From contig SYIK01000005.1 in assembly GCA_005798905.1 (NCBI GenBank), forward strand, positions 124,001 through 188,000: DNA of 64,000 bases, written 5' to 3'. Source of the stretch: Bacteroidota bacterium (GTDB lineage: Bacteria > Bacteroidota > Bacteroidia > Chitinophagales > Chitinophagaceae). This document shows positions 33,968 to 37,233 of this stretch, in pieces. The notes below the pieces were generated by a model. It saw nothing but the letters and a program-made list of their open reading frames with translations, had not been told where the DNA came from and made no database searches. Position numbers and translations under genes: made by a program. Numbering within the stretch: position 1 is the stretch's first letter; each line of letters begins with the position of its first letter.

Positions 33968-34411
33968 TTATTCTTTTTTTGAGGATAATACAATCCCTTC
34001 TTTTGCTGTTTCCTTTACCAAATCAGCGATAGTCCTGTTTTCAAACATGGAAATTAATTTTGGTTTTATATGCTTGTATTGTGAATGCAAAGGGCATGGC
34101 CTCTTTTCCGAACAATCACTTAATCCTAAAATGCAAGTATTTAACCACTCGCATCCTCCAATTGCATTGAGAATGCTGCTAATTGGAAACATCTTAGCTT
34201 CATCTGTTATATAAAAGCCTCCATTAGGCCCCCTGACTGATTGAACAATACCGACTCCCGTAGTAAGTTGTTGAAGAATTTTTGCTGTATAGGCTTGAGG
34301 AGACCCTATTGCTTTTGCAATTTCTTTTAAACTCATTTTCTTTTTCTCAGTACTTTTTTGTGCAATTAACATTACTGCCCTCAAAGCATATTCTGCAGAT
34401 TTAGATAACAT
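33968..34411 (-). CDS. Rrf2-family Fe-S transcriptional regulator (NsrR/IscR-like)
   Basis: MLSKSAEYALRAVMLIAQKS, GIVQSVRGPNGGF, cysteines in CEWLNTCILGLSDCSEKRPCPLH. Confidence 0.92.
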   Translation of the reverse strand: MLSKSAEYALRAVMLIAQKSTEKKKMSLKEIAKAIGSPQAYTAKILQQLTTGVGIVQSVRGPNGGFYITDEAKMFPISSILNAIGGCEWLNTCILGLSDCSEKRPCPLHSQYKHIKPKLISMFENRTIADLVKETAKEGIVLSSKKE

Positions 34412-34416
34412 ATACT

Positions 34417-34436
34417 ACTTATATTTTTATACAAGT
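34417..34436. promoter_or_regulatory. Imperfect inverted repeat ACTTATATTTTTATACAAGT directly upstream of the Rrf2 start; possible operator
   Basis: ACTT...AAGT arms with AT-rich core in the queD-rrf2 gap. Confidence 0.3.
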
Positions 34437-34876
34437 TAAACCAAAGAATTGGAATACCACTCTGCATATGAATCGTGTGTTTCGAAAATTTTTAGGTTTT
34501 CTAATTTAATATACTCAGGTAGCGTAGCTATCAGTTTATTTTTTATAAAAATTAAAATATTTTCTGCAGTTGGTTCTATTTCCCAAATTATCAGGTTTTC
34601 TATTGTTTGTATTTCTGAATGTTCGGAAAGAAAACGAGATGATAAAATTATTTTATGATCAAGCAATTCTGTTATAGAAGCGTAAATCAGCTTCTTTAAT
34701 TCTTTGAAGTCTACCTCAAAGCCTGGATAAAGAAGAAAGTCATCGACAGTTACATTTCGACCTGTTACTGTAACATGTAATTCATAGGAATGCCCATGAA
34801 TGTTTCTGCAGTCCCCTGGATAATCAGCAATAGCATGAGCCATTTCAAATCGAACAACTTTAGTTATATGAATCAT
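34436..34876 (-). CDS. queD: 6-carboxytetrahydropterin synthase / 6-pyruvoyl-tetrahydropterin synthase family (QueD-like)
   Basis: RFEMAHAIADYPGDCRNIHGHSYELHVTVTG (CxxxHGH Zn/catalytic motif), ENLKIFETHDSYAEWY. Confidence 0.9.
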   Translation of the reverse strand: MIHITKVVRFEMAHAIADYPGDCRNIHGHSYELHVTVTGRNVTVDDFLLYPGFEVDFKELKKLIYASITELLDHKIILSSRFLSEHSEIQTIENLIIWEIEPTAENILIFIKNKLIATLPEYIKLENLKIFETHDSYAEWYSNSLV

Positions 34877-34903
34877 TTTTTTCTGTTAATTTGCAAAAAA
34901 AGA

Positions 34904-34934
34904 CAAATATATCCACAATCTATTACCTTCACAA
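34904..34934 (-). promoter_or_regulatory. Predicted promoter for queD-rrf2: TTG-N20-TATATTTG
   Basis: Reverse-strand -7 TATATTTG (34904-34911) and -33 TTG (34932-34934), overlapping the 5' UTR of the divergent nod-like gene. Confidence 0.45.
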
Positions 34935-34950
34935 AAAACAATTCCACACT

Positions 34951-37233
34951 ATGTCTACACACAATGTACTTAGCTATCTTCTTAATCCAAAAAAATGGTG
35001 GCTTCCTCTGCTAATAATATTTTTGATTAGCTTATTTGGTGTATCTATGATAGGAATTCATACATATACAGAGGCTCCACCCATTGCAACATTTGTAGAC
35101 AATAAAAACAAAATTGTATTTTCTAAAGAAGATATTTTAAAAGGGCAAGCAACATTCCAACAATCTGCATTAATGGAGTATGGCAGTTTCTTTGGCGATG
35201 GTGCCTATCGTGGCCCAGATTTTACAGCCGAAGCATTACACCAAGTTGCATTATATATGAATTCTTTTTATGAACAAGGAATAGTAACGAGCGATAGTGA
35301 GAAAGATTTGAAACAAAAAGGTGTTGCAGAAAAAGTAAAAAATGAACTCAAAAGAAATCTTTATAACAAAAAAAACAATCAGGTTTTATTAAGTGAGGGT
35401 CAGTCCTATGCAGCAAATTCATTGATACACTACTACAATACTAAGTTTACACAAAGCGACTCCGCTTCTTCTTACCAATCAATTAGATACATCAAGGATA
35501 GTGCTCAAATTAGAGCACTATCCGCTTTTTTTTTCTGGGGAGCTTGGGTTTGCGGCGTGGAAAGACCAGGAGAAAGCTACAGCTATACGCATAACTGGCC
35601 CTTTGATCCGCAAGCTGGTAATACCCCAACTTCTGCTATTATTTTATGGAGTATTTTGGGAATGTTTGGTTTAATATTAGGGCTCGGACTCGTGCTTTAC
35701 TATCACGGTAAATTAGAAAAGCTGAATAATGAAACTTACACAAGTAATGCACAGTCCTTTATGACAACCGAAGAGGTCTCCAATTTTACACCCTCTGCTA
35801 TACAAAAAGCAACATTTAAATATTTTTTTACTGCCATTTGGCTTTTTGCACTTCAAGTATTGTCAGGCATTTTGACGGTACATGATTTTGTTGGAATTGT
35901 TAATTGGTTTGGATATGACCTATCGGAATTATTACCCATTACCATCACTAGAAGCTGGCATGTGCAACTTTCCATTATCTGGATTTCGGCTTGTTGGATT
36001 GGAGGCTCTTTTTTCATGATGTCCTTAGTTTCTCCGAAACAGTCAGCAGCTCAATTAAAATTAGTAAACACTATCTATTGGCTAACCGTTTTATTGGTGG
36101 CAGGCTCCTTAGCTGGAATTCTATTAGGCCCCCTTGGCTATTTAGGTAAATATTGGTATTGGGCCGGGCATCAAGGTTGGGAATTTGTTGAGCCTGGTAA
36201 AATTTGGCAGATTTTGCTTGGCTTTATTTTCATTTTATGGGCGATTACTCTATACAGAGGAGTGAAACCAATTTTGAAACTTAACCAACCATGGGCTTTG
36301 CCTAACTGGCTTATCTATTCTACTTTTAGCATCATCCTATTACTTTCCTCGGGATTTGCTTTTACACCAACTACAAACTTTGTCATTGCCGATTTTTGGA
36401 GATGGATGGTAGTTCATATGTGGGCAGAAGCATTTTTTGAAGTCTTTACTACTGTGCTTATTGGATTCTTCATGGTGATGATGGGATTGGTAAATAAACA
36501 GGCGGCTATTCGAGTAATTTATTTGGCAACATTATTGTTTTTAGGATCTGGATTATTGGGTATTTCGCATAATTTTTATTGGAATGCAAAACCTGTTTTT
36601 ACCATGGCATTAGGAAGCGTCTTTTCTACCTTGCAGGTTGTTCCCTTAGTGTTGCTCACTTTGGAAGCTTGGAGATTCAGTAAATTACCTAAAGCATTGG
36701 AATCTGCAAATGAGCATGTAACTCCCAAAAGTAAATTTGGATTTAAAGAGGTTTTCCTTTTTTTAATTGCAGTCAATTTTTGGAATTTCTTTGGTGCGGG
36801 AGTGCTGGGCTTTATTATTAACCTCCCTATTGCAAACTATTTTGAACATGGCACTTATTTAACAGTTAACCATGGACATGCTGCATTGATGGGTGTATAC
36901 GGAAATCTTGCAATTGCAGCAGCTTTATTTTGTAGTCAACTACTAATCAAGAAAGCATGGTGGCATTCGCAAGTTGTCAAAATTGTATTTTGGTCTATTA
37001 ATTTAGGTTTATTGCTTATGATATTTCTTGACCTTTTCCCTGTCGGAGTATATCAATTTCAACAAACAGCTGAAAAGGGACTGTGGTATTCTAGAAGCAG
37101 CGCATTTACTGACAGTATTGAATTTCAATCTTTGACTTGGCTTAGAATAATTGGAGGTTCAATTTTTACCATTGGAGGAGTAGTTCTTCTTACTTGGTTT
37201 TTTACAAGTAGGGCCAACAAATTAAAAAACTAA
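34951..37233 (+). CDS. nod: Putative nitric oxide dismutase (Nod), qNOR/NorZ-family heme-copper oxidase with Nod-diagnostic substitutions
   Basis: qNOR architecture (degenerate N-terminal cytochrome-like domain plus about 12-14 TM NorB domain, NHGHAALMGVYGN heme ligands), but SHNFYW instead of xHHxYW, FSTLQVVPL instead of FSALEVVPL, LTVHDFVGIVNW and WLRIIGG in place of quinol-site residues. Confidence 0.82.
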   Translation: MSTHNVLSYLLNPKKWWLPLLIIFLISLFGVSMIGIHTYTEAPPIATFVDNKNKIVFSKEDILKGQATFQQSALMEYGSFFGDGAYRGPDFTAEALHQVALYMNSFYEQGIVTSDSEKDLKQKGVAEKVKNELKRNLYNKKNNQVLLSEGQSYAANSLIHYYNTKFTQSDSASSYQSIRYIKDSAQIRALSAFFFWGAWVCGVERPGESYSYTHNWPFDPQAGNTPTSAIILWSILGMFGLILGLGLVLYYHGKLEKLNNETYTSNAQSFMTTEEVSNFTPSAIQKATFKYFFTAIWLFALQVLSGILTVHDFVGIVNWFGYDLSELLPITITRSWHVQLSIIWISACWIGGSFFMMSLVSPKQSAAQLKLVNTIYWLTVLLVAGSLAGILLGPLGYLGKYWYWAGHQGWEFVEPGKIWQILLGFIFILWAITLYRGVKPILKLNQPWALPNWLIYSTFSIILLLSSGFAFTPTTNFVIADFWRWMVVHMWAEAFFEVFTTVLIGFFMVMMGLVNKQAAIRVIYLATLLFLGSGLLGISHNFYWNAKPVFTMALGSVFSTLQVVPLVLLTLEAWRFSKLPKALESANEHVTPKSKFGFKEVFLFLIAVNFWNFFGAGVLGFIINLPIANYFEHGTYLTVNHGHAALMGVYGNLAIAAALFCSQLLIKKAWWHSQVVKIVFWSINLGLLLMIFLDLFPVGVYQFQQTAEKGLWYSRSSAFTDSIEFQSLTWLRIIGGSIFTIGGVVLLTWFFTSRANKLKN

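Follow-up and report, generated by a model that had tools for sequence, protein, structure and literature searches.

A putative Bacteroidota-type NO dismutase of Chitinophagaceae with an apparently re-specified quinol pocket

The nod gene, its product and its surroundings

The window, meaning the whole stretch of 64,000 nucleotides that was analysed, comes from a Chitinophagaceae genome of 1.86 Mb that is 99.7% complete. At the locus considered here, a gene for a putative NO dismutase (Nod) lies divergent from genes on the opposite strand:

33968-34411, minus strand: Rrf2-family regulator, reaching the cut-off of none of the equivalog models, that for NsrR among them; present near nod in 20 of the 28 relatives with at least 2.5 kb of upstream sequence
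34436-34876, minus strand: PTPS/QueD-family gene, divergent from nod; near nod in 12 of 36 loci
34951-37233, plus strand: nod, encoding a qNOR-like heme-copper protein with an N-terminal cytochrome-c-like domain (no CxxCH) and a COX1 domain

Both minus-strand genes (33968-34876) recur beside nod in many relatives, and the Rrf2-family protein is a probable NO- or Fe-S-responsive regulator. The longest open reading frame around nod (34891-37233, plus strand) encodes 780 aa and opens with TTG at 34891; since the alignments of many relatives begin at residues 19-21, the gene probably starts at ATG 34951 (residue 21) instead. A perfect 11-bp hairpin followed by a T run lies within the coding sequence (35496-35523) and is terminator-like (-19.9 kcal/mol); it was not found at the equivalent place in the nod genes of relatives and is thus not conserved. 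Downstream of relatives' nod genes (L013:5436-8210 and similar loci) are encoded a DGC-domain protein, a hotdog thioesterase, a U32/UbiU-like protein and a small protein without a Pfam match; in the window, this set was not seen immediately after nod. Over their last 400 residues, nod sequences in genomes scored as belonging to the same family match their counterparts in Hydrotalea flava and Flavihumibacter.

The window protein carries the domains PF22085 (N-terminal, c-like) and PF00115, and has the general build of a qNOR, with two b hemes, an N-terminal c-like domain in which no heme c motif (CxxCH) was found, and a qNOR fold. Its likeness to the qNORs (GsqNOR, 3AYF/3AYG; AxqNOR; NmqNOR) includes full-length homology (35% identity to 3AYF), both sets of b-type heme ligands (H357, H661, H663), the FeB-site residues H509, H560 and E513 (H508/H559/E512 in the qNOR comparison), Arg742 and the Trp718 of AxqNOR. 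The best fold matches of its AlphaFold model are likewise qNORs (TM 0.82 to 3AYF), the model being adequate for the fold and not for pocket geometry (mean pLDDT 67, pTM 0.70). It differs from them in carrying H560N, E581Q, E332G, D746G and Y329D. The NorB of cNORs also has a COX1 domain and no Qi-site carboxylates, but it lacks the N-terminal c-like domain and falls on a separate branch of the tree.

Quinol-site and active-site residues in Nod-type and qNOR-type proteins

The best solved relative of the window protein is the qNOR of G. stearothermophilus (GsqNOR, 3AYF; phmmer E 2e-148, query 41-770). The phmmer alignment pairs H328 with H331, E332 with G335, F336 with W339 and D746 with G756, as well as R742 with R752, H560 with N561 and E581 with Q582, and a MAFFT alignment of homologues gives the same pairing. 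These positions were compared between 44 Nod-type proteins, defined by Asn at 560, and 38 qNOR-type proteins, among them 6 carried on plasmids from other phyla as well as the Gs and Ax sequences; Nods from outside the Bacteroidota were compared through their published descriptions. The residues of interest, all on the plus strand, are the following:

35881-35883, plus strand: His331, equivalent to GsqNOR His328 (quinol hydrogen-bond residue), kept; His in 40 of 44 Nod-type proteins, Asn in 4
35884-35886, plus strand: Asp332, equivalent to GsqNOR Tyr329, a Nod-specific replacement; Asp in 44/44 Nod-type proteins, Tyr (37) or Phe (1) in 38/38 qNOR-type
35893-35895, plus strand: Gly335, equivalent to GsqNOR Glu332 in the phmmer and MAFFT alignments, the carboxylate being gone
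35905-35907, plus strand: Trp339, equivalent to GsqNOR Phe336, a conservative aromatic change that is not diagnostic
36571-36573, plus strand: Asn561, equivalent to GsqNOR His560 (FeB ligand), a Nod hallmark; 44/44 Nod-type, 0/38 qNOR-type
36634-36636, plus strand: Gln582, equivalent to GsqNOR Glu581, a Nod hallmark; 44/44 Nod-type, 0/38 qNOR-type
37138-37140, plus strand: Trp750, equivalent to AxqNOR Trp718 (proposed Qo site), kept; also conserved in cNORs and not diagnostic
37144-37146, plus strand: Arg752, aligned with GsqNOR Arg742 and AxqNOR Arg720, kept
37156-37158, plus strand: Gly756, equivalent to GsqNOR Asp746 (quinol hydrogen-bond residue), lost; it belongs to the C-terminal half of the quinol site; Asp in 38/38 qNOR-type, 0/42 Nod-type

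The in-frame codons TTG ACG GTA CAT(35881) GAT TTT GTT GGA(35893) ATT GTT AAT TGG(35905) translate to LTVHDFVGIVNW. An earlier, sequence-only reading had placed H331, G335 and W339 on His328, Glu332 and Phe336 of GsqNOR at CAT 35881, GGA 35893 and TGG 35905, and both its codons and its frame are as claimed. Its assignment of the protein to the Nods agrees with N561 and Q582, which stand where qNORs have the third His of the FeB site and Glu581, and with the position of the protein in the Nod-type clade. The retained His and the change of Glu332 to Gly were also correctly described: position 332 is Glu in 36 and Asp in 2 of the 38 qNOR-type proteins, and never Glu in the 44 Nod-type ones (Gly 40, Lys 2, Asn 1, Asp 1). 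The change of Phe336 to Trp, shared among the Nod-type proteins only with L038, is real, but does not hold as part of a quinol-site loss, because Phe is usual in Nods (Phe 34, Tyr 5, Trp 2, Ala 2, Leu 1) and Leu occurs in 10 of the 38 qNOR-type proteins (Phe 28). Y329D and D746G, which that reading missed, are the stronger evidence, position 746 being Gly in 41 Nod-type proteins and Ala in 1, with two sequences not covered. The split between the two sets of proteins at 332 and 746 does not arise by chance. We therefore regard Glu332 to Gly, Asp746 to Gly and Tyr329 to Asp as the robust quinol-site changes. Of the quinol-site residues whose substitution is characteristic of Nods (His328, Glu332, Phe336, Asp746), the window protein has replaced Glu332 and Asp746, so that the Qi site His328/Glu332/Asp746 of qNORs reads H/G/G.

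All proteins with H560N and E581Q lack Glu332 and Asp746, whereas position 332 is acidic and Asp746 is present in all those with H560 and E581; the active site and the quinol site are changed either together or not at all, and no intermediates were found among the 44 Nod-type and 38 qNOR-type proteins. In a maximum-likelihood tree of 86 proteins, a quick tree in which some qNOR branches are long and the reference Nods of M. oxyfera, HdN1 and Muricauda are absent, the 44 Nod-type sequences all group in a single clade that excludes the qNORs (SH-aLRT 100), with a single label change and a long and clear Nod branch. The window protein sits in a near clade of 40 members (SH-aLRT 99). The remainder of the Nod-type clade (L065, L066, L074, L075) is a second Bacteroidota group at 52-57% identity, in which His328 is replaced by Asn and Glu332 by Lys, Asn or Asp, and Asp329 is kept. 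In this tree, the quinol-site substitutions and the active-site ones (His560 to Asn, Glu581 to Gln) lie on one branch; as both sets share it, they are not independent evidence, contrary to the earlier suggestion that the former fit the latter "independently". No Nod homologues were found in a scan of viral contigs, and plasmid records among the matches listed reached only <37% identity, the six examined being qNOR-type.

A quinol site eroded by neutral decay in a degenerate gene could account for two pocket carboxylates turned into Gly. This we consider extremely improbable, since it is refuted by the intact 780-aa frame, by the 62-72% identity to near-clade relatives and by the invariance of the replaced residues there. 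H328, D329, G332, R742 and G746 are invariant in the 40 near-clade sequences, where 35% of all columns are invariant, and the motif T-V/I-H-D-F-V-G hardly varies. Across the Nod-type proteins, R742 is kept in 42/42 and W740 (AxqNOR Trp718) in 41/42. The claim that the quinol site is lost stands, then, for the canonical site, which is without Glu332 and Asp746, and not as a simple loss: with the substituted residues invariant in the near clade and H328, R742 and the Trp of the second site kept, "lost" is too strong a word for a pocket that looks re-specified and held, and not left to decay.

Function of the changed pocket

Cryo-EM of AxqNOR (2026) describes two quinol positions, Qi adjoining heme b and Qo at Trp718/Arg720. 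At Qi, His305 and Asp724 (GsqNOR H328 and D746) hydrogen-bond the quinol, an arrangement reported as absent in cNOR (PMC13087809). The same paper cites the qNOR of P. marina, in which mutating the equivalents of H328, R742 or D746 abolishes activity. Judged by these residues, the canonical (HQNO/Qi) site of the window protein very probably does not work the way it does in qNOR.

The reading we favour, and hold to be reasonably likely, is that the window protein is a Bacteroidota-type putative Nod of Chitinophagaceae that processes NO without drawing on quinol at the canonical site, and that its quinol pocket has been re-specified, the segment at 35881-35907 being the N-terminal half of that pocket. 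The best-supported activity, based on the residues and on published physiology, is the one that Ettwig et al. proposed in 2012, NO dismutation that needs no external donor. With Glu332 and Asp746, the carboxylates that accompany His328 in the Qi pocket, both replaced by Gly, no quinol would be oxidized at Qi, and NO turnover would therefore require no two-electron donor from outside. A pair of NO molecules would bind at heme b3/FeB, the electrons transiently needed would cycle via heme b within the protein, and the products would be N2 and O2 (2 NO -> N2 + O2). According to a 2026 study (PMC13386854), by June 2026 no Nod had been isolated and studied biochemically, and accounts of dismutation disagree with one another.

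The host genome encodes one Nod, one aa3 oxidase, a NosZ, and one NorB-like protein accompanied by a NorC-like cytochrome. Oxidases of the cbb3 and bd types were not found in it, nor was any recognised nitrate or nitrite reductase (NirK reaching 28 bits only, NirS 22.5 bits, NrfA none). Only one molybdopterin protein is encoded (1159 aa, C5); it shares a contig with the aa3 genes and may be the ActB protein of alternative complex III. Because no recognised nitrite reductase is encoded, the NO would probably be made by other cells, that is, outside the host. The role of the putative Nod in this host would probably be the removal of such NO under the Rrf2-type regulator, and any O2 formed would go to aa3, the only terminal oxidase found.

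What counts against a dismutase is that nod carriers nearly all keep NosZ (21/22 vs 11/24 non-carriers; Fisher p 0.0003, ignoring relatedness, with a non-random sample of non-carriers and one carrier counted from NosZ fragments), although a pure route from NO to N2 would not need it. The presence of NosZ would suit an NO reductase that still makes N2O and receives its electrons elsewhere, through the retooled pocket (H331 and the new D332), a Trp750/Arg752 (Qo) path or a cytochrome c, for instance the one in the NorCB-like pair. The conservation of H328 (40/44), D329 (44/44), R742 and W740 among Nods is consistent with it, as is the loss of ~85% of activity in AxqNOR W718A and R720A. However, Trp718 and Arg720 are conserved in cNORs as well (PMC13087809), so that their retention says little on quinol use, and kept Trp750/Arg752 was rejected as a sign of it. 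Moreover, the window protein has Gly in place of Asp746, which is essential in the P. marina enzyme, carries other residues instead of one FeB His and Glu581, and contains no CxxCH.

The NorC/NorB-like genes adjoin nod, divergently, in 12 of the 28 loci with enough upstream sequence, and lie elsewhere in the host genome. The pair consists of a NorC-like cytochrome c and a NorB-like protein of 449-472 aa (L109:1402-3220, which is G000:C11 of the host genome, and L018:1187-2957), and is also present in L013, L014, L015, L024, L027, L035 and L047. The FeB His/Glu helix of the NorB-like protein reads QWKSYGS or QWKVNGS, vs HLWVEG in cNOR, with one FeB His missing; the pair may belong to one of the newer NOR families or be a non-catalytic partner. 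As the NorB-like partner occurs in only 7/22 carriers vs 4/24 non-carriers, adjacency points only weakly to the pair as electron donor of Nod. Taken together, we consider an NO reductase with another electron entry unlikely.

Alternatively, the protein could bind NO for scavenging or protection and turn over little or none of it, its low-spin heme and lost donor site making it an NO sink. This would fit the Rrf2 (NsrR-like) gene adjoining nod in 20 of 28 loci, a linkage from which the authors of PMC13386854 suggested NO detoxification, and a host without recognised NO-producing reductases. Nevertheless, the entire active site is invariant over the 44 Nod-type sequences, which suggests catalysis, and Nods are among the most abundant gene products of M. 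oxyfera (PMC3413370). A mere sink seems to us quite improbable.

Returning to the favoured reading of a putative Nod with a re-specified pocket, some ligand or redox role may persist at the changed site, since it is invariant in the near clade with H328, R742 and W740 kept. Every Nod-type protein seen has Asp instead of the Tyr that follows position 328, and Glu332 and Asp746 are given up. On this basis we suggest, tentatively and with rather low confidence, that the pocket has been rebuilt for a new job, serving a different donor or ligand or acting as a proton or electrostatic gate for heme b in dismutation. Nods would then not be electron-isolated.

Relation to published Nods and significance

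Nods without a proper quinol site were described by Ettwig et al. in 2012 (PMC3413370). The putative Nods of Ca. Methylomirabilis oxyfera, strain HdN1 and Muricauda resemble the window protein in the changes of His560 to Asn and Glu581 to Gln and in having quinol-site substitutions. Many environmental and NC10-cluster nods have His328 replaced by Thr and Glu332 by Arg (PMC10286720), whereas the near clade keeps His328. Nods in Bacteroidota are already published too, from Sediminibacterium and Algoriphagus (Ruff 2023, PMC10264387) and from lake MAGs (2026, PMC13386854), again with H560N/E581Q and quinol-site substitutions. Quinol-site substitution in Nods is therefore published (PMC3413370; PMC10286720), and the present finding is sound but ordinary, the trait having been described in 2012 and being common to every relative examined. 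No mention of Y329D was found in the available parts of the published Nod descriptions; the change adds a detail to a trait already known.

The revised set of residues (E332, D746 and Y329D changed; His328, Arg742 and Trp718 kept) offers sharper targets for mutagenesis than the published His/Glu/Phe triad, since the Phe is uninformative for the clade of the window protein. Whether Nods take electrons from outside decides if they are O2 makers or odd NO reductases, a question still open as of 2026, and the quinol site is the place to test it.
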